A stretch of DNA of 37,463 nucleotides from Candidatus Thorarchaeota archaeon MP11T_1 (GTDB lineage: Archaea; Asgardarchaeota; Thorarchaeia; Thorarchaeales; Thorarchaeaceae), in assembly GCA_002825515.1 (NCBI GenBank), contig PJET01000109.1, positions 1 to 37,463 on the forward strand, in the 5' to 3' direction. The notes beneath the pieces were generated by a model, which did not search any database, had not been told where the DNA came from, and was given only the letters and a program-made list of their open reading frames with translations. Positions 6,386 to 37,220 of the stretch are shown piece after piece. The number at the start of each line of letters is the position of its first letter. The first letter of the stretch is position 1. The position numbers were made by a program, and so were the translations under genes.

Positions 6386-6493
6386 GGGCCCGTGGCCTAG
6401 CCTGGACTTATGGGACTCCATCCCATTGGAGGTATATAGGGCACTAGCCTCCTAAGTTAGTAATCCCCGGTTCAAATCCGGGCGGGCCCGCCA
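6386..6493 (+). tRNA. tRNA-Arg (CCU) with an insertion (probable intron) in the D-loop
   Basis: The acceptor GGGCCCG/CGGGCCC, T arm CCCGG-TTCAAAT-CCGGG and anticodon stem CTAGC-CTCCTAA-GTTAG (anticodon CCT, reads AGG) are all intact, and CCA is encoded at 6491-6493. The D stem pairs GCCT (6395-6398) with GGGC (6439-6442), but 40 nt lie between the two arms instead of about 10. The flanks AGCCTGG...ATA match the D-loop of the tRNA-Met in this window, so about 30 nt are extra. The insert can form ATGGGA/TCCCAT or, alternatively, CTCCA/TGGAG. An AAAGCTTTAA promoter-like stretch lies about 40 bp upstream. Confidence 0.9.
6407..6436 (+). other. Probable D-loop tRNA intron (boundaries approximate)
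   Basis: Removing about 30 nt here leaves a normal 10-nt D-loop. The exact cut sites cannot be fixed by eye because no strict bulge-helix-bulge is evident: GCCT (6400-6403) can pair with AGGT (6430-6433), enclosing the hairpin ATGGGA (6410-6415)/TCCCAT (6421-6426), but the two single-stranded sides are 6 and 3 nt. Shifts of a few bases are possible. Confidence 0.6.
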
Positions 6494-11669: not shown

Positions 11670-12065
11670 GGTGTTAAGTATAGATTATGCCTAATAATCC
11701 CGTCATAGTAAAAATAGAAAAGTGATGTGGTGCCTCAGGAGGTTATTGAATCGATTCCTCATCCTTCGAGAAACTTCAGGCACCCCCAACACTGACTAAA
11801 CAAGCGCACACACTTCTCCTCCTGCGCCTCCTCACACAACCCAATCGCCATCTCCGTCGGAATCGACTTCAGTCACGTATCTTCCTGAGAGAGCTGGAAT
11901 TCAAACAACTATCCCCAATGTTTAGACCTCATAAGAAGAATCGGGCAAGAAACAATGGCAGGTCGTCCTAAAACCCAACAATTCATTCCAATAGACCCTT
12001 AAATCCTACTCAATGTAGAACTCTACAAATGCTGTTGGGATGCCCCCATAGAGTTCAATTATCGT
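11670..12065. other. Gene-free stretch with inverted repeat, possible element remnant
   Basis: No convincing gene. GGTGCCT (11729-11735) and AGGCACC (11778-11784) form an inverted repeat around a GAATCGATTC palindrome. A short hairpin GTCG-GAAT-CGAC starts at 11856. The part from 11725 to 11900 is GC-richer than neighbouring spacers. It shares the words TTCAGGCAC and CGTCGGAAT, in the same order, with the island at 28.6-28.8 kb. Open but unrecognisable frames run through it. It adjoins the foreign-looking gene at 12066. Confidence 0.4.
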
Positions 12066-12989
12066 TCACTCTTGGCAGTTCGTTTCCTGAGAGGTATTCA
12101 TCTTGTCGTTAATCTCGTTCACAGCCTGCTCGAGGTCCTCCGCTGTCCGCATCGAGGTGGCTGTCGGGACGCTCGTCGTGACGAAGTGCTGCGCGTACGG
12201 GAAGCACGCCGCCTCGAACGGCATCGGATCCAGTGCGCCAGCGCCGAAGGTGTTGGTGCACAACGAGATATCATCGAGCGGGAGTTTCAGCGCTTGCGCC
12301 ATCTCCTTCGGATCGAACACCAGACTGAACGGCTTGGTACATTGCTGCAGCTCACCGCCGTAGTCGACTGAGAGATTGCCCTCGACCCACAGGCGCTGAT
12401 TGAGTTCCGTGAACACACCGTTCTTCAAGTCGGCGACGAAGACGAGGCTGTTGTCAGACTGCGCGCTCGCAACATCAATGATGATCTCCCCGAGATAAGA
12501 TGTCGTGACTACCGAATGGGACGTACTCGGACCGATGAAGCCCTGGCTCGGGTCGTAGCTGTGCGTGTTGCTCTCATACTCAACGATGACCCAAGAGAGA
12601 AGTCCTGTTTCGCAGTTCTCAGCAATCAGATAGAACTCCACGCGGCTCCCCCAAAACACGCTTGTGTGAATGTTGAAGGCGCTAACGATTGCGCATAGTC
12701 GTTTGGGAGTATTGCTGAACATCGCTGAAGGGAGCAAGCTGTAGTTCGGCGGCAACAACCGCTCGACCGTTTCAGTATCAGTGACCTCAAAGGCAAGGAA
12801 CACACTGTATGGCTCAACGATGAAGCTCATGTACGGGTTGGAGCGCGCCCCTCTTTTGACGATGTACCGCTGGAGTCTGAGCGGCAGCTTGCGGAGAAAG
12901 CCACTACCCTGAGTCGTGGACGCAACCTTGGCAGGCACGACCATCTTCTCGGTAGTCTTGATATAACGTCGAAGATCCTTAATTTTCAT
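12066..12989 (-). CDS. Acetoacetate-decarboxylase-like fold protein, GC-rich, probably acquired
   Basis: A 307-residue protein. Segments such as FLAFEVTDTETVERLLPPNYSLLP, CAIVSAFNIHTSVFWGSRVEFYLIAEN and a long beta-rich middle resemble the acetoacetate decarboxylase superfamily (the PPxYxLxP entry and the GxxxEFY strand), but I do not see an unambiguous catalytic Lys. A function cannot be stated. The coding DNA is far GC-richer than anything else in the window (68% G+C over 12121-12180, against roughly 40% elsewhere) and uses GCG, CGC and CTC codons its neighbours avoid, which indicates recent horizontal transfer. A GAGGAGATGTC ribosome site precedes the ATG at 12989. It is flanked by a decayed gene-free stretch and the 3' end of tRNA-Met. 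Confidence 0.6.
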   Translation of the reverse strand: MKIKDLRRYIKTTEKMVVPAKVASTTQGSGFLRKLPLRLQRYIVKRGARSNPYMSFIVEPYSVFLAFEVTDTETVERLLPPNYSLLPSAMFSNTPKRLCAIVSAFNIHTSVFWGSRVEFYLIAENCETGLLSWVIVEYESNTHSYDPSQGFIGPSTSHSVVTTSYLGEIIIDVASAQSDNSLVFVADLKNGVFTELNQRLWVEGNLSVDYGGELQQCTKPFSLVFDPKEMAQALKLPLDDISLCTNTFGAGALDPMPFEAACFPYAQHFVTTSVPTATSMRTAEDLEQAVNEINDKMNTSQETNCQE

Positions 12990-13175
12990 GACATCTCCTC
13001 ACATTAACGTTTCATGATTCTTTTGTTTCTCTTTCAGCACATAAGAACTATTCAATTCCATGAATCCACACTCTATACCTTTCTCACAGTATATCAAAGT
13101 ACTCACTAATTGTATGGAAGTATCAACCAAAGAGAAAAGAATGCGTGCGTGAAAATATAGTGCCGCAGGTGGGAA

Positions 13176-17398: not shown

Positions 17399-17520
17399 TG
17401 GTGCGGGAGGTGGGCTTCGAACCCACGAACTCCTACGAGAGCGGATAGCCTATTCACATGACCCCTTGATTTCATGCGATCTTAAGTCCGCCGCCTTTGA
17501 CCGGGCTTGGCTACTCCCGC
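17399..17520 (-). tRNA. tRNA-Leu (UAA) with a 34-nt intron
   Basis: A class II tRNA: acceptor GCGGGAG/CTCCCGC, long variable arm with stem CTC-GTAG-GAG, T arm GTGGG-TTCGAAG-CCCAC and encoded CCA (17401-17399). The anticodon stem GCGGA (17491-17487) pairs with TCCGC (17445-17441), and the loop CTTAAG|A holds anticodon TAA with an intron between positions 37 and 38. The mature length is 85 nt plus CCA. Confidence 0.93.
17447..17480 (-). other. Intron of tRNA-Leu (position 37/38), 34 nt
   Basis: A good bulge-helix-bulge. CTTA of the exon pairs with TAGG of the intron, leaving bulges AGA (5') and CTA (3'). The intron interior forms TCGCATGA/TCATGTGA, eight pairs including one G-T. Cleavage is predicted as AG|A and CT|A. 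Confidence 0.88.
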
Positions 17521-24389: not shown

Positions 24390-25364
24390 ATGACAATCGC
24401 AATTCATGAGAGTGCATTGATCCGGCACTTCAATACCCGCAAAGAAGTTCTTCGTGCTTGGGAAGAGAAGATTGGTGCTAGATTCTCGCCATTTCGTGGC
24501 TTCAAGATGCCAGACAGTCGTCTGTACATTGAAGATAGTGACTTTTTGGACTCTATTGTTGATTTAATTATAACAAATGAACGTCATGTTTTCATTCGTG
24601 GACCAGTAGGCTCGGGTAAGAGTACATTGATGCTATTAGCATTGAGAGATTTACCAACATTAGCTGATCGTAGAGGAAACAAATTCATCACTGGCTATGT
24701 TGGTATGACTGGTCTTTATGAAAAACAAATGGCATCAGCAATTGCTGATTCTCTTAGAATAAAATATCGAAGATCATGGGAGTCTAGTCAGATTATTGAT
24801 GCAGTTGCGAAAGAGAGTCTTCGAAGATATCTTGAAGAACAAAGTCGCACAGCATTATTCATTGAAGACGTTGCAGACAATCAAGAAGCAGCATTTCATA
24901 AATTAAGATTCCTTGCGGACCTACCTACTGAAGAGATGATTGATGCATACTCGGGAGCTCTTGACGAACCTATTTTCACATTGGTTATGTCTGGGACTAT
25001 GATATACTGGAATGCAATGCTTTCTTTCCTACCGCAGATTGCGGACCGTACGGAACCTCTTGATGTTCCCTCACTCAATGATGCGAAAGCAAGGGAATTC
25101 ATAGGACGTCGAATTGCTTATGCACAAGGACATATTGACAGCTTTAATCCGGAGAGTTTCAGTGTTTATCCATTTACTGATGATGCAGTGAATGTCATTA
25201 ATACAGCAGCAAAGGGAAATCCACGTGATATACGAATGCTTGCACGTGGATGTCAGCAAGTTGCAGCTGAGAATCTAAGAAATTCTGGGAATCCAGGAGT
25301 GACAAGAGAAATTGCTGAGCTAGTTTCTGAAGCATATGCAACATTACTCAGGGAGGTACAATGA
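24390..25364 (+). CDS. AAA+ ATPase of the Orc1/Cdc6-TniB-like type, partner of an RHH protein
   Basis: A 324-residue AAA+ protein. Residues 1-60 precede the ATPase and end in MPDSRLYIEDSDFLDSIVDLI. Walker A is HVFIRGPVGSGKST (about residues 65-80), Walker B ALFIEDVADN, sensor-1-like LVMSGTMIYW, and sensor-2 region AAKGNPRDIRMLARGCQQVA, the GNPR type found in Orc1/Cdc6, ExeA and TniB ATPases. It lacks the Orc1 winged-helix tail and the IYGxTGTGKT wording, so it is not an obvious initiator. GAGGT precedes the ATG. The gene ends 1 bp before the start of an RHH-like gene, a strict two-gene cassette. A role in DNA segregation, defence or transposon biology is possible; none is proven. Confidence 0.72.
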   Translation: MTIAIHESALIRHFNTRKEVLRAWEEKIGARFSPFRGFKMPDSRLYIEDSDFLDSIVDLIITNERHVFIRGPVGSGKSTLMLLALRDLPTLADRRGNKFITGYVGMTGLYEKQMASAIADSLRIKYRRSWESSQIIDAVAKESLRRYLEEQSRTALFIEDVADNQEAAFHKLRFLADLPTEEMIDAYSGALDEPIFTLVMSGTMIYWNAMLSFLPQIADRTEPLDVPSLNDAKAREFIGRRIAYAQGHIDSFNPESFSVYPFTDDAVNVINTAAKGNPRDIRMLARGCQQVAAENLRNSGNPGVTREIAELVSEAYATLLREVQ

Positions 25365-25365
25365 A

Positions 25366-25668
25366 ATGAGTTTACTTGGTAAGTATAGAAAAGAAGCGGA
25401 AAAAGAAGAAGGAGAAGAAAAACCAACAAGAATGGTGGCTAGAGAATCTAGACCAGTAGAACAAAAGAGTGAGCTTATATCTTCTGTTCCAAATCGAGAA
25501 CGAAAGAGTCCAATTGTTTCTTTCTCTATACCAACTGATCTCAGAGCTTGTCTAAAAGCAATTAGAAAATCAAAGGCAATCAACCTGAGTATGTGGGTAG
25601 AGAAACAGCTGCGTGAAGCGATTGTACAAGAATTCCCGCAGATAGCTGAAGAATATCTTGAGTCATAG
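25366..25668 (+). CDS. Ribbon-helix-helix-like small protein
   Basis: A 100-residue product. The first half is charged and probably disordered (KYRKEAEKEEGEEKPTRM). Residues about 55-95, SPIVSFSIPTDLRACLKAIRKSKAINLSMWVEKQLREAI, have a ribbon (IVSFSIP), helix A and helix B in the spacing of RHH DNA-binding proteins such as CopG/SegB/Omega. I chose ATG 25366 behind GGGAGGTACA rather than an upstream ATG at 25336 that lies within the ATPase gene. It presumably dimerises, binds DNA and represses the cassette; a partition-like centromere-binding role is an alternative. It is convergent with the acyl-CoA synthetase gene. Confidence 0.65.
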   Translation: MSLLGKYRKEAEKEEGEEKPTRMVARESRPVEQKSELISSVPNRERKSPIVSFSIPTDLRACLKAIRKSKAINLSMWVEKQLREAIVQEFPQIAEEYLES

Positions 25669-32547: not shown

Positions 32548-33165
32548 CTATTTTTTGCAGGCTTGTGACATCTCAAAACCCATCTTTGTTGCATTAACAT
32601 TGACTTTTTCAAATTTCTTTGGAAATGATGTGCGAACAACATTGAGTGCAATTTCTTTTGTAATCGGTACTAGGTCAGTTCCAATGATTGCTCCTAACAT
32701 AACCATATTGAGAGCTTGAGTACTTCCTGCCTTTATTGCAAGTTCTAAAGCGTCAAATTCGATTATTCTATCAGTATACTTGCACATATTCTTGATTATT
32801 TCTTCGTGATTAGGGTATTCAGATTTGCCCATTGAAACTGCAACAGGATATTGAACATGAGAGCTCATGAGAACACAACCACCTTGTTTAACGAGATTGA
32901 TTTCTCTAAGAGTTTCAAGTGGTTCAAATCCAACGAGAAGATGAGCAGAGCCTGGATCTATAATTGGCCCTCTGGCATTTTTACCTATGCGGACTGTGCA
33001 AACAACATGACCCCCTCGCTGGGCCATTCCATGAATTTCTCCTACTCGGACATTGAGACCGCATTCTAATGCCGCTTTTGCTAAAATCTCTGCAAGAGTC
33101 AAAACACCTTGACCTCCGACTCCAGTGATTGCAATATTCACTGTATTGTCAATGATATTATTCAT
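32548..33165 (-). CDS. iorB: Indolepyruvate:ferredoxin oxidoreductase, beta subunit
   Basis: A 205-residue gamma-domain subunit of the 2-oxoacid:acceptor oxidoreductase family. The opening NIAITGVGGQGVLTLAEILAKAAL and VGEIHGMAQRGGHVVCTVRIG are the classic IorB signatures. EPLETLREINL and NMVMLGAIIG follow. With IorA it oxidatively decarboxylates arylpyruvates to aryl-acyl-CoA, reducing ferredoxin, in aromatic amino-acid fermentation. The acyl-CoA could feed an ADP-forming synthetase such as the one at 25.7 kb. GGAGGATACAATAA precedes the ATG at 33165, which overlaps the iorA stop by 8 bp. Confidence 0.95.
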   Translation of the reverse strand: MNNIIDNTVNIAITGVGGQGVLTLAEILAKAALECGLNVRVGEIHGMAQRGGHVVCTVRIGKNARGPIIDPGSAHLLVGFEPLETLREINLVKQGGCVLMSSHVQYPVAVSMGKSEYPNHEEIIKNMCKYTDRIIEFDALELAIKAGSTQALNMVMLGAIIGTDLVPITKEIALNVVRTSFPKKFEKVNVNATKMGFEMSQACKK

Positions 33166-35059
33166 TTATTGTATCCTCCTGCTTTATGGCTCCTTGTGGA
33201 CATACTGAAACGCAGGTACCACATAGATTGCATAATGTTTCATCAATTATTGCTTGTTCTGTTTCTGAATCCATGTACATAGCAGGACATGAAAGACGAT
33301 TAAGACAACGTTTGCATGCATTACAGAGCTCTGAGTCAACATAGTATTTGGGGGGATATTTGTCTGTACGTCGACGTTCGGCAGCTGTAAGAAGTGCACA
33401 TGGTTCTCTTGATACTAATACTGCAGGACTATGGTTTTCTCTAGTCCATTTGACCATCTCACGTACCTCGGCCACCAGCCTCGCCATTGACTGAAATGGT
33501 TCAACCGTTTTGACATATTTCACACCAAGACCTCTGCACACATCTTCAATATCCAGAGGTGGAACTTCTTTCTGCATACCAGTTACTCCAGTGCCAGGGT
33601 GTGGTTGATGACCAGTCATTGCAGTAGTTCGATTATCAAGTACTACAACACAAATTCGATGTTGATTGTATACTGCATTTGCAATTCCTGGCAAACCAGA
33701 TGCAAAGAATGTACTGTCTCCGATTGATGCAACTATATCTTGATCAGTGACTTCCGCAAGACCACATGCAGTAGTAATTGAAGATCCCATATCGAATAAT
33801 ATGTCTGCAGTTTCTAGTGGAGGAGCAATGCTTAATGTATAACATCCGATATCGGAAGGATAGATAGCTTTTCCTCGAGTTGCAGTTCTTATTGCATAGT
33901 AAGTTGCTCTGTGTGGACAACCAGCGCATAGAAGAGGTGGTCTCGGAGGTAGTTCTGGTAGTTCTTTGGTTTTTTCATCAATCTCTTTCCAGTTGATAGG
34001 TGTATTATATGTAGTAATTTGTTTTAGAGCATCCATAACAATTCGAGGACTATATTCGTATGTACGGGAGAAAATTCCTTGTTCCTTTCCAATGATTTCA
34101 ACATTGATTTTGTTCAATTGAGCTAAGCGTCTAGCGTGTGTTTCTAAGAACGGTTCTAGCTCTTCAACAATAATAACTTGATTATGGTGACTAAGAAAAT
34201 CTGTAACCATTTTCTCAGGGATTGGATGTGTAATTCCAAGTTTCAGGATTTCTGCTTTGATTTTCATGATTGATAGTGCTTCAATGACATAATTGTATGA
34301 AACACCGGATGTGATTATTCCAAGATCACCCTTGCCCTCAGTAAAGTTCAATGGGCTTTTTTCAGATAATTCACGTGCAAGACCTATTTGTTCAAGAAGC
34401 CATGGATGTCTTTTTCGGGCAACTGATGGAATAGGAACAAAACGGAATGGTTCCTTTTCAAATTCAATCTTATTTGGACGTGGAAGGATTTTTCCAAATT
34501 TCACTGGAGCTCGGGTATGGTTGACTCTTGTCGTTGTTCGAAAGAGTACTGGGAGCTCTAGCTCTTCTGAATATTTGTAAGCTTCAAGTAGCATGGATTT
34601 TGCTTCAATAGGATCAGCGGGTTCCATCATTGGCATGTTTCCCATTAATGCATAGTATCTACTGTCATTCTCATTTTGTGAGCTCCACATACTTGGATCA
34701 TCTGCTACGATAATTACCATTCCTCCACGAACACCAACATATGATAGTGAAAAGAATGGGTCAGCAGCAACATTGAGACCTGGACCCTTACATACCATCA
34801 TTGATCTTACGCCAGCAACGGCAGCTGCACCTGCAATTTCTAGTGCGACTTTTTCATTTGTACTGAATTCAAAGTAGAAGTTTTGAATATGTGGTGCCAT
34901 AAATGTCAGGTTATTTCCAATTTCACTACTTGGTGTACCAGGATAAAGAGCTACTAGTCTGACACCAGCTTCTAACACACCTCGAGCTATTGCTTCATTT
35001 GCAAGAAGGAGAATTTCTTTTCCTGGTTTGTCTTCAAGTAGTTCTTTGGATTTTGTCAT
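33158..35059 (-). CDS. iorA: Indolepyruvate:ferredoxin oxidoreductase, alpha subunit
   Basis: A 633-residue thiamine-diphosphate and iron-sulfur enzyme. The N-terminal part has LALYPGTPSSEI-like VALYPGTPSSEIGNNL and NEKVALEIAGAAAVAGVRSMMVCKG. The middle has RPPLLCAGCPHRATYYAIR, the TPP-binding block IGDSTFFASGLPGIANAVYNQHRICVVVLDNRTTAMTGHQPHPG. The C-terminus holds two [4Fe-4S] ferredoxin motifs (CNACKRC, then CNLCGTCVSVCP). I chose ATG 35059 because GGAGGATCAGTCA precedes it; an in-frame start at 35131 would add 24 unrelated residues. It forms an operon with iorB. Its upstream region is the putative replication origin and carries a GAACACGTGTTC palindrome 88 bp before the start. Confidence 0.96.
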   Translation of the reverse strand: MTKSKELLEDKPGKEILLLANEAIARGVLEAGVRLVALYPGTPSSEIGNNLTFMAPHIQNFYFEFSTNEKVALEIAGAAAVAGVRSMMVCKGPGLNVAADPFFSLSYVGVRGGMVIIVADDPSMWSSQNENDSRYYALMGNMPMMEPADPIEAKSMLLEAYKYSEELELPVLFRTTTRVNHTRAPVKFGKILPRPNKIEFEKEPFRFVPIPSVARKRHPWLLEQIGLARELSEKSPLNFTEGKGDLGIITSGVSYNYVIEALSIMKIKAEILKLGITHPIPEKMVTDFLSHHNQVIIVEELEPFLETHARRLAQLNKINVEIIGKEQGIFSRTYEYSPRIVMDALKQITTYNTPINWKEIDEKTKELPELPPRPPLLCAGCPHRATYYAIRTATRGKAIYPSDIGCYTLSIAPPLETADILFDMGSSITTACGLAEVTDQDIVASIGDSTFFASGLPGIANAVYNQHRICVVVLDNRTTAMTGHQPHPGTGVTGMQKEVPPLDIEDVCRGLGVKYVKTVEPFQSMARLVAEVREMVKWTRENHSPAVLVSREPCALLTAAERRRTDKYPPKYYVDSELCNACKRCLNRLSCPAMYMDSETEQAIIDETLCNLCGTCVSVCPQGAIKQEDTINE

Positions 35060-35146
35060 TGACTGATCCTCCGTAAGTAGGATATCCGCTGAGAATTGTG
35101 AGTACTGTATCAGTTTTGTGGTATTGAACAAGAACTTTGAAAATTA

Positions 35147-35158
35147 GAACACGTGTTC
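35147..35158. promoter_or_regulatory. Palindrome GAACACGTGTTC, copy 1
   Basis: A perfect 12-bp palindrome, 88 bp upstream of the iorA ATG and 56 bp to the left of the left origin box. It is one of four copies within 652 bp. Confidence 0.8.
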
Positions 35159-35213: not shown

Positions 35214-35234
35214 GACCCCTTCATTTCCACTAGA
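35214..35234 (-). repeat. Left origin recognition box (ORB)
   Basis: Read on the minus strand it begins TCTAGTGGAAATGAAGGGG and ends TC. This matches the archaeal ORB: a TCCAGTGGAAA-like half followed by a G-string, the site bound by Orc1/Cdc6. It is 18/21 identical to the right box and in inverted orientation to it. Confidence 0.8.
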
Positions 35235-35359
35235 AAGATCTTATGGAGAATGTCTGCAGCGGGTATTATTATATGTTAAAAAAATGGAGATAAAAGCAGC
35301 TTTTAAAACGATTATATATATTTTTTGATATTTTAACGATTAGATATTTGTTAATAATC

Positions 35360-35380
35360 TCTAGTGGAAACAAGGGGGTC
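35360..35380 (+). repeat. Right origin recognition box (ORB)
   Basis: TCTAGTGGAAACAAGGGG followed by GTC. It contains the GTGGAAAC-AA-GGGGG wording of published archaeal ORBs almost exactly. It is the inverted partner of the box at 35214-35234. Confidence 0.85.
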
Positions 35381-35392
35381 CGATTCAATTTA

Positions 35393-35404
35393 GAACACAT
35401 GTTC
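35393..35404. promoter_or_regulatory. Palindrome GAACACATGTTC, copy 2
   Basis: A palindrome with one central change from the other copies (CACATG instead of CACGTG), 12 bp to the right of the right origin box. Confidence 0.75.
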
Positions 35405-35455: not shown

Positions 35456-35467
35456 GAACACGTGTTC
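35456..35467. promoter_or_regulatory. Palindrome GAACACGTGTTC, copy 3
   Basis: A perfect copy between the origin and the 3' end of the short unknown gene. It is preceded by TTTA as in copy 2. A TGTAATACA motif (35433-35441) lies between copies 2 and 3. Confidence 0.8.
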
Positions 35468-35480
35468 TCAATATCAATAC

Positions 35481-35768
35481 CTATAACTCTTGAACAACCT
35501 CATAGATCCTCAATTTGAGAATATCTTCATACATTTTGAAAAGCGTATCAAAAATAGTACGATATTCAGAAGGAACAAGAATAGCTGAATCTGCAACAGC
35601 CTCTGCACCAGGACATTCTTCTAAAAGACCTGGTTTTCTTTTTTGTTTAATTCCCGACTTTGTCTTCCAAGAGTAAAAGTATCCATAAAGCTCCTTTGTG
35701 AACGCAACACGTCTTGCATTAGTTCTTCTTGCATGTTGACAGTCGTACAAATAAAGATACAAAGTCAT
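35481..35768 (-). CDS. Unrecognised small protein beside the origin (95 aa)
   Basis: Not recognised. From ATG 35768 the product begins MTLYLYLYDCQHARRTNARR and continues with a basic segment (ELYGYFYSWKTKSGIKQKRKPGLLEECPGA), then an acidic/hydrophobic end containing VPSEYRTIFDTLFKMYEDIL. The Tyr-rich strand, basic loop and final helix suggest a small alpha/beta nucleic-acid-associated domain; that is inference. A GTG at 35792 would lie within palindrome copy 4, so I rejected it. The palindrome sits about 19 bp before the ATG, where it would overlap promoter or transcript start. The gene occupies the space between the origin and the lysine operon and faces the origin. Confidence 0.6.
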   Translation of the reverse strand: MTLYLYLYDCQHARRTNARRVAFTKELYGYFYSWKTKSGIKQKRKPGLLEECPGAEAVADSAILVPSEYRTIFDTLFKMYEDILKLRIYEVVQEL

Positions 35769-35786
35769 TTGAAACAACCAATTAGA

Positions 35787-35798
35787 GAACACGTGTTC
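35787..35798. promoter_or_regulatory. Palindrome GAACACGTGTTC, copy 4
   Basis: A perfect copy between two divergent genes: just upstream of the short unknown gene and 118 bp before the lysine-ketoglutarate reductase start. Preceded by ATTAGA, like copy 1. Confidence 0.8.
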
Positions 35799-35915: not shown

Positions 35916-37220
35916 ATGAATCGAATTGGACTTAGAAAAGAAGAGAAAGCGTTTGAAACTCGAGTTCCAGTAGTACCTGATCATGTTAGGCTCTTACAAG
36001 AAAAACACGGTATCAATTTTGTATTAGAACCAAGTAATCAGCGCGCATTTTTAGAGAATGAGTATAATATCGATGTTCAACCACTAAAAGGCAGTGGTGT
36101 ACATATTGTATTGGGAATAAAGGAGATGCCCATCGATTTCTTCGAGAAAGATATCGTATACGTATTTTTCAGTCACACTGTTAAAGGTCAACCTAACAAT
36201 ATGCCTATGCTCAAACAGATAATGGACATTGGAGCAACATTAATTGACTATGAACGAGTTGTCGATGAAAAAGGTCGAAGACTCATCTTTTTTGGTAATT
36301 GGGCAGGAATGGCTGGTATCTCAAACACACTTCGTATTCTTGGTGAACGTTTTGAAATAATGGGAATAAAACCTAATCCTTTCTTCGGAATGAAACCGAC
36401 ACTTGAGATAAGAGAGCTTGATGAATTAAAAGAAGAGTTCAAGCTCCTTGATAATCGAATCAAGGAACAAGGTCTTCCCAGTGAGTTTACACCTTTTGTA
36501 ATAGGATTTGCAGGTTATGGAAATGTATCTAAAGGCGCCCAAGAAATTTTTGATATTTTACCACATAGGACAGTAGAACCAGAAGAGCTACCGGGTTTGG
36601 CTCCAGAATCAAATCTACTTTACAAATGTGTTTTCAAAGAAGAACACATGGTTGAACCTAAAGACACCTCAATAAAATTCAATCTTCAAGACTACTACAA
36701 ATTTGGGAAAGCAAAGTATGTTGGTGTGTTCCAAAAACACATACCCTATCTTACTGTACTAATGAATTGTATATATTGGACAGACAAATACCCCAGATTA
36801 TTGACCTTGGATTTCATTCGTAATTATTGGTATAATGAAAATCGAAAGCTCCAAGTCATAGGTGACATCTCTTGTGACATTAGAGGTGCGATAGAATTCA
36901 CTGTTCAATGTACAAGTGCAGACAAACCAGCTTTCACTTACATTATTGATGAAGATCGAGCAAGGCTAGGAATAGAAGGCGAAGGACCAGTCATCATGGC
37001 TGTAGACAATCTTCCGTGTGAACTCCCACGTGAATCATCTACATCCTTTAGTGAAACACTCCTAGACTTTATTCCAGCTCTAGCTACTACAGATTTCAAA
37101 GTACCATTTTCAGATCTTGAGTTACCTCGGGAGCTCAAAGATGCTGTGATAGTATACCGAGGAAAACTAACTGAGAAATTCCAGTATCTTGAACAATACC
37201 TTCCAAAGGAGGATAACTAA
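35916..37220 (+). CDS. Lysine-2-oxoglutarate reductase domain protein (eukaryote-like LKR)
   Basis: A 434-residue protein equivalent to the N-terminal half of eukaryotic AASS (LKR/SDH). The first 130 residues belong to the alanine dehydrogenase/PNT N-terminal fold: IGLRKEEKAFETRVPVVPDHVRLLQEKHG, KGSGVHIVLGIKEMPIDFF, VYVFFSHTVKGQPNNMPML. The sequence then reads LIDYERVVDEKGRRLIFFGNWAGMAGI and, as Rossmann core, PFVIGFAGYGNVSKGAQEIFDILP. The SHTxKxQ and FGxWAGxAG wording is what distinguishes LKR from alanine dehydrogenase. It would condense lysine and 2-oxoglutarate to saccharopine with NADPH. It is followed at 2 bp by a saccharopine dehydrogenase gene. TGGAGGACAAACA precedes the ATG. Confidence 0.88.
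   Translation: MNRIGLRKEEKAFETRVPVVPDHVRLLQEKHGINFVLEPSNQRAFLENEYNIDVQPLKGSGVHIVLGIKEMPIDFFEKDIVYVFFSHTVKGQPNNMPMLKQIMDIGATLIDYERVVDEKGRRLIFFGNWAGMAGISNTLRILGERFEIMGIKPNPFFGMKPTLEIRELDELKEEFKLLDNRIKEQGLPSEFTPFVIGFAGYGNVSKGAQEIFDILPHRTVEPEELPGLAPESNLLYKCVFKEEHMVEPKDTSIKFNLQDYYKFGKAKYVGVFQKHIPYLTVLMNCIYWTDKYPRLLTLDFIRNYWYNENRKLQVIGDISCDIRGAIEFTVQCTSADKPAFTYIIDEDRARLGIEGEGPVIMAVDNLPCELPRESSTSFSETLLDFIPALATTDFKVPFSDLELPRELKDAVIVYRGKLTEKFQYLEQYLPKEDN

Follow-up and report, generated by a model that had tools for sequence, protein, structure and literature searches.

A 167-bp module lying upstream of iorA, in the 37,463-nucleotide stretch of DNA analysed here (hereafter, the window), is, to judge from its sequence and that of its relatives, very probably the Orc1-type core of a Thorarchaeial chromosomal replication origin. 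An earlier note on this DNA had proposed a putative archaeal replication origin at this place, and the proposal is now supported by a switch in strand composition located at the site, by the concentration of origin recognition boxes (ORBs) around it, by the conservation of the ORB pair and by the presence of orc1/cdc6 genes. The note had also remarked that, should the organism be an Asgard archaeon, such an origin would have been little described; the window does belong to Thorarchaeota, its iorA being 91% identical to the iorA of Thorarchaeota SMTZ1-45.

Anatomy and conservation of the module

The module consists of two putative ORBs flanking an AT-rich spacer. ORB-L (35214..35234, minus strand, TCTAGTGGAAATGAAGGGGTC) is made of a dyad, TAGTGGAAA, and a G-string pointing outward, and the G-string of ORB-R (35360..35380, plus strand, TCTAGTGGAAACAAGGGGGTC) also points outward. 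The two boxes are inverted relative to each other and identical at 18 of 21 positions. Between them lie 125 bp with 24% G+C (35235..35359), a putative duplex unwinding element; the coordinates previously given for two inverted 21-bp elements and for the AT-rich DNA separating them proved exact. The stretches of lowest G+C content in the window, whether of 40, 60, 80 or 100 bp, are all found in the spacer, with an overlap of at most 4 bp with ORB-R, and the 100-bp one has 17% G+C. A core motif, AAAATGGAGATAA (35281..35293, plus strand), which reads TGGA[GT]AT in the alignment of 23 modules, sits at about mid-spacer, and the module alignment revealed a second conserved block, the AT-rich AAAACGATTATATATATTTTTT (35305..35326, plus strand). 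A search of the window with the common ORB expression of Ori-Finder 2 (PMC4164010, Table 1), allowing up to three mismatches, found exactly two matches, ORB-L and ORB-R, where 0.03 were expected; none of 100 shuffles contained two matches to the same expression at the same threshold. The boxes differ from the published consensus, TCCA[CG]T[TG]GAAA[TC][GA]AAGGGGT, at 1 and 2 positions. The statement that published archaeal boxes have the same wording stands in part only: as far as Table 1 of PMC4164010 goes, a G-string is present in the boxes of Methanomicrobia, in one from Sulfolobaceae and in the common motif, but those of Thermococcaceae are without it.

Among 46 relative loci, 23 are from Thorarchaeota (one, L011, being labelled just ‘archaeon’), and 22 of these include the DNA upstream of iorA, two of them (L001 and L002) coming from one bin. 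The inverted ORB pair was found upstream of iorA in all 22, with at most three mismatches per box. When the window is added to them, the distance between box starts is 144–152 bp and the spacer is 124–132 bp long in 23 cases out of 23, and the G+C content of the spacer is 0.19–0.35, as compared to 0.35–0.45 for the flanks. Further iorA loci with upstream DNA brought the pair again in 21 out of 21, with at most four mismatches per box and spacers of 120–130 bp having a G+C content of 0.21–0.39. Four of these 21, however, are apparent repeats of L010, L013, L018 and L021, as judged by their boxes, which leaves about 17 new loci, and a twenty-second one (L236) is a fragment whose match starts at contig base 3. 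Boxes with 3–4 mismatches occur in some distant modules. Conservation of the spacer in related genomes, one of the checks suggested in the earlier note, is thus borne out in both sets of loci. In each of the 17 loci that extend far enough, a third ORB is present, 4.4–4.6 kb upstream of iorA or, in the case of L008, 5.9 kb; the window ends short of this position. The SMTZ1-45 bin carries two differing copies of the origin locus (L001 and L002, on contigs LRSL01000069 and LRSL01000115), which correspond either to two strains in the bin or to a duplicated locus.

The core motif TGGA[GT]AT is located 49–55 bp into the spacer in the 23 modules and is nearly invariant there. In its strict form it is present at the ORBs in six of the seven long contigs, G016 being the one that deviates, and there is a single stray match in 1.19 Mb. 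Among the 21 further modules, a looser core was found in 14 (10 out of 17 if the apparent repeats are set aside) and is missing in seven, so that the core is not shared by the whole class. Seven of the 23 loci (L006, L007, L008, L012, L014, L015 and L017) carry the module in the opposite orientation with respect to iorA; it is turned round in one piece, with ORB-L, ORB-R, the spacer between them and the palindrome next to ORB-R. Comparison of the inverted spacers with four references gave alignment values of 14–33 in the reverse orientation and of 2–12 in the forward one, with shuffle means of 3–6. The seven loci form one clade in the IorA tree (support, 99/99), and a single change accounts for them. 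Survival of the inverted form would not be expected if the module were a promoter element.

The ORB pattern, with up to two mismatches, has 2–5 matches per genome and 64 in total in 17 Thorarchaeial genomes. By hand count, 50 of the 64 correspond to the ORB pair or to the third box, 4.1–5.6 kb off (the second locus copy of the G001 bin being included), and the remaining 14 do not go much beyond the 12 matches obtained with a reversed-pattern control. Thus, when searched for elsewhere in the genome, as had been advised, the element turns out to be concentrated at this locus. With at most one mismatch, a match is present in 38 of the 47 class genomes. In G039, a genome of about 2.6 Mb assembled as one contig of 2,579,037 bp, the pair (at 1.8075 Mb) and the third box account for three of the four matches at this threshold. 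A relaxed pattern, applied to 18 genomes, gave no match in six of the 47 class genomes (G023, G033, G035, G036, G040 and G045), and some of its matches in other genomes do not adjoin iorA. Since iorA was likewise not found, at E 1e-150, in the six ORB-negative genomes, the iorA/ORB locus may be unassembled there; G023 is a possible exception, given its contig of at least 2.7 Mb.

Strand composition around the module

Skew was also among the checks suggested. Seven contigs of 129–268 kb were analysed whole, and raw cumulative GC skew was replaced by GC skew at third codon positions, with gene orientation included in the model. On a 1-kb grid, the best positive split was never more than 1.12 kb from the ORB pair in any of the seven, with t from 4.9 to 9.8. 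Pooling the 315 ORFs located no more than 30 kb away gave a side effect of 0.121 and a t of 18.7; in 2000 sets with random centres, |t| reached 10.2 at most. On the cdc6-B side the skew stays at +0.14 to +0.24 for 25 kb before decreasing. On the side of iorA, values of −0.07 to −0.12 extend over about 70 kb and weaken further out, where the number of contributing contigs is smaller. The module is inverted in three of the seven contigs (G006, G007 and G011) and the switch is in place there, which makes it independent of the orientation of the module. In the window, the orientation-balanced skew is +0.12 on the left (bootstrap 0.077 to 0.167, 32 ORFs), and the two ORFs on the right have −0.38 and −0.15. 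The flanks of the window thus show the same sign change as the seven relative contigs. The change, from positive to negative, makes the site a maximum of GC skew, a sign that in bacteria goes with the terminus.

When raw cumulative GC skew is used, the maximum falls no more than 3 kb from the module in four of the seven contigs (G006, G001, G016 and G013); G017, G007 and G011 show no peak within that distance. Nor is the module extreme in its raw left-right contrast, the ranks being 0.05–0.31 at 10 kb (seven contigs) and 0.011–0.095 at 20 kb (the six contigs with room). For AT skew at third positions, t is −3.4, inside the random range (largest value, 6.6). Two other places, cdc6-A (t 1.5, five contigs) and cdc6-B (t −4.2, six contigs), found no support as strand-switch sites. 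A third-position change of opposite direction lies just beyond cdc6-B, near −28 to −31 kb; five of the seven contigs have it at −29 to −31 kb, and in G007 its t of −6.3 is larger in size than the best value at the module, 4.9. An example of this opposite change is found near 84 kb in contig C69 of G001. In G039, sixty 20-kb blocks (1.2 of 2.58 Mb, within the first 1.55 Mb, short of the origin) displayed a weak and irregular skew.

Initiator genes, flanking genes and alternative readings

The earlier note had left to be checked whether orc1/cdc6 exists in these organisms at all: genes scoring above the family cut-off are found in 47 out of 47 Thorarchaeial genomes, most of which have two strong paralogues, cdc6-A (about 405–430 bits when complete) and cdc6-B (about 280–305 bits). 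The best matches of the cdc6-A product of G001 among solved structures are 2qby_A, i.e. Sulfolobus Cdc6-1, and 2v1u_A, which we take to be an Aeropyrum protein on ORB DNA; by these matches, cdc6-A of this relative is an orthologue-like gene of Orc1-1 type. For cdc6-B, the nearest solved structure is 1fnn. In L051, the neighbour of cdc6-A resembles the DNA polymerase II small subunit, with 420 bits, under the cut-off of 445.

Neither gene is close to the module. Where ORBs and cdc6-B are on the same contig (27 genomes), they are 15.6–42.2 kb apart, with a median of 24.1 kb and 25 of the 27 values at 20–27 kb; this count omits the genomes having them on different contigs, as well as G029 and G038, for which only the third box was known. 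Measured by hand, the distances in G029 are about 24.8 kb to cdc6-B and 65.9 kb to cdc6-A. The Orc1-1-type gene, cdc6-A, is at least 58 kb from the ORBs in the 12 same-contig cases out of 12, and 1.02 Mb away in G039, where it is located at 0.783 Mb. The earlier observation that no orc1/cdc6 gene is adjacent therefore holds across the relatives, and the edge of the window is not its cause. An initiator gene beside the origin, as in the replicator-initiator pair described in PMC4010727, is not what is found in Thorarchaeia.

The situation differs in other Asgard archaea. In a phylum sample of 148 genomes, 72 have an ORB match with at most one mismatch; 42 of these (hand count) are outside the 47 class members, and orc1/cdc6 was searched for in all 42. 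In 27 of them an Orc1-1-type gene was found on the same contig as the ORBs, and in 26 of the 27 the two are within 2 kb of each other, the exception being G090, with 10.3 kb; 17 distances were computed and 10 measured by hand (all of the latter at most 1.6 kb), and the gene is a fragment in G150. In the other 15 genomes, the ORBs and the Orc1-1-type gene are on separate contigs or the gene was not found. Because the two are so close in 26 of 27 cases, the coupling of origin and initiator gene is likely the ancestral state, from which Thorarchaeia have departed. As in Thorarchaeia, ORB clusters in other Asgards (e.g. in G063, G070 and G088) comprise an inverted pair and a distant third ORB; however, at the five loci with a readable pair the spacers are 162–187 bp long with 30–42% G+C, versus the Thorarchaeial 120–132 bp. 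The Thorarchaeial core motif was not found in the spacers of L298, L299 and L308; the spacer of L309 contains ATGGAGA and that of L312 a looser match.

One alternative is that the module is a true origin but a secondary or dormant one, the main origin being elsewhere, for instance at orc1/cdc6-A. Dyads reading TCCANTGGAA or TTCCANTGGA, at no more than 350 bp from the gene match, are present at 32 of 43 cdc6-A loci, nine of which have at least two, as opposed to none of 17 cdc6-B loci, and such a distribution of TTCCANTGGAA dyads would suit this possibility, as would the fact that several origins are frequent in archaea (PMC5333045). Three observations make it unlikely: at cdc6-A the skew gives a t of 1.5 (five contigs) against 18.7 at the module, most of the cdc6-A dyads are without a G-string, and in G039 the cluster of full ORBs (at most one mismatch) exists at this locus only.

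On the left of the module is iorA (33158..35131, minus strand), coding for the alpha subunit of indolepyruvate ferredoxin oxidoreductase (TIGR03336, 745.8 bits, above cut-off), the true start of which is probably near 35059. On its right is a gene for an AlaDh/PNT-domain dehydrogenase (35916..37220, plus strand), followed in L001 by one for a saccharopine dehydrogenase. The operons were said to run away from the site on both sides; this is correct for iorAB on the left and for the AlaDh/PNT-like gene on the right, but a conserved gene for a 103-amino-acid protein (35481..35792, minus strand) faces the site. A ferredoxin-like fold is predicted for this protein, with weak Cas2- and CutA-like fold matches (Foldseek E >0.001); it has no PADLOC match, and its relative in L001 has no Pfam match. 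Among the matches listed (120 of 195), those with a name are from Thorarchaeota, and the position of the gene adjoining the origin is conserved in relatives. Another gene, coding for a 209-amino-acid protein (L001:5911-6540), is found beside the third ORB, about 3.2 kb from the pair in relatives, which places it past the end of the window. Its product, with 68–95% identity in the alignment, is conserved more than that of the AlaDh/PNT-like gene (17 of 17 loci); it has no Pfam match and, among the matches listed (120 of 306), the named ones are from Asgard archaea, mostly Thorarchaeota. A C-terminal winged helix is predicted for the 209-amino-acid protein, with weak PadR-, RosR- and Cdt1-like matches; the protein is no more than a candidate for a core-binding factor. 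For both proteins, the fold search brought nothing at an E of 0.001 or better.

Several palindromes surround the module. The sequence GAACACGTGTTC occurs at 35147..35158, beside iorA, where it is a probable transcription-factor operator, at 35456..35467 and at 35787..35798, upstream of the AlaDh/PNT-like gene; GAACACATGTTC (35393..35404) is next to ORB-R and stays next to it in the inverted modules. In the window, four copies of the palindrome GAACAYRTGTTC (at 35147, 35393, 35456 and 35787) surround the origin. There are 8–17 copies of it per genome in 17 relatives, against 0–2 for a control, and in five of seven contigs a copy is located 67–108 bp before an unrelated gene that contains VTDLVYH; the product of this gene, from its sequence, looks like a histone-deacetylase-like protein. 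As origin elements, the GAACAYRTGTTC palindromes were ruled out on both counts, i.e. the number of copies per genome and their presence before an unrelated gene; GAACAYRTGTTC is probably the operator of some regulator.

Such surroundings give some ground to the view that there is no origin here and that the ORBs are Orc1/Cdc6-bound sites for transcriptional control of the iorAB and dehydrogenase operons: the module lies between divergent operons and among operator-like palindromes, its boxes are about 70–370 bp upstream of iorA in relatives, and regulation by an Orc1-type protein has been described (Orc1-2; PMC9738581). We nevertheless hold it to be very unlikely. The orientation relative to the regulated gene, fixed in the case of a gene-bound operator, is not so here, the block being inverted in seven of the 23 loci with the module still conserved; furthermore, the strand-composition switch is located at this place, the AT-rich spacer is nearly fixed in length, and ORBs are concentrated at the locus on a genome-wide scale. 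A replication terminus or domain boundary at this place, which would agree with a GC skew going from positive to negative as at bacterial termini, is hardly credible, inverted ORBs around an AT-rich element having been described as archaeal origins (PMC12141716, PMC5333045) and the ORBs of other Asgards being next to the initiator gene.

A few other features of the window may be mentioned. A match to the Rfam tRNA family (17402-17520, minus strand; 43 bits, 119 bases), absent from the ARAGORN list, is possibly a tRNA with a long intron; conversely, the tRNA-Arg found by ARAGORN at 6413-6493 is absent from the Rfam list. An AAA ATPase-like gene with sub-threshold AAA_16/AAA_22 matches is present at 24390-25668 (plus strand) and is followed by a small overlapping ORF. 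The stretch at 12001-13000, which contains a 307-amino-acid ORF (12066-12989, minus strand), has 54% G+C, compared to 41% for the window, and is possibly a recent arrival.

Proposed functioning and comparison with known systems

How the origin would function can be proposed by analogy with Sulfolobus oriC1, from which we infer the binding protein, the loading of the helicase, the direction of the forks and the role of the core. An ATP-bound Orc1/Cdc6 of Orc1-1 type would bind both ORBs, which face outward, and bring two MCM hexamers to the AT-rich DNA between them, perhaps around a core-bound protein, and bidirectional forks would then leave the module both ways. The dyads in the promoter of cdc6-A might let Orc1-1 regulate its own gene in trans. 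One may go further and imagine a single origin cut loose from its initiator gene and able to flip as a block, with Orc1-1 supplied in trans through the dyads of its promoter and the 209-amino-acid protein serving, where the core is present, as a UBP-like bridge bound to it; strand asymmetry being opposite to that of bacteria, methods relying on the skew minimum would then misplace the origin. Taken as a whole, we find this reading rather doubtful, the more so as the core motif does not occur throughout the class.

Of the prokaryotes known, Asgard archaea are those most closely related to eukaryotes. Among the titles listed by literature searches, with subscription journals and preprints outside their scope, none describes a Thorarchaeial origin. 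Two papers on Asgards judge replication from whole-genome GC skew: for complete genomes of Heimdall-, Loki- and Odinarchaeia, it was said to suggest that replication is not bidirectional (PMC11291895), and the Odinarchaeum origin was placed at a local skew minimum (PMC9246712). The module provides a class-wide origin candidate at base level, whose strand switch stands out clearly at third codon positions alone, and it could be checked against existing read-depth data. The uncoupling in Thorarchaeia, set against the coupling in other Asgards, would allow initiation in cis-linked and in trans-acting form to be compared in nature.

A parallel in layout is Sulfolobus oriC1, in which inverted ORB2 and ORB3 flank an AT-rich DUE with the ucm midway; according to the same source, losing either ORB abrogates activity and mutation of the ucm severely reduces it (PMC12141716). 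The Thorarchaeial module likewise has inverted boxes, an AT-rich element and, in many modules, a motif near the middle, a likeness of layout only, and the stretch mutated in oriC1 (PMC12141716) is 130 bp long, to be compared with Thorarchaeial spacers of 120–132 bp. However, oriC1 adjoins cdc6-1 (PMC5333045), whereas both Thorarchaeial orc1/cdc6 genes are far off. The ORB pairs reported for Methanomassiliicoccales resemble ours in box wording, pairing and inversion, one of them having a spacing of 113 bp, but they too adjoin a gene of this family, orc1/cdc6.1 (PMC4153887, Table 2). A precedent for uncoupling is provided by Aeropyrum pernix, in which, by the account given in PMC5333045, neither cdc6 gene adjoins a predicted origin. 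The difference is that Aeropyrum belongs to another archaeal group, while here one class of Asgard archaea is uncoupled and the other Asgards are coupled.
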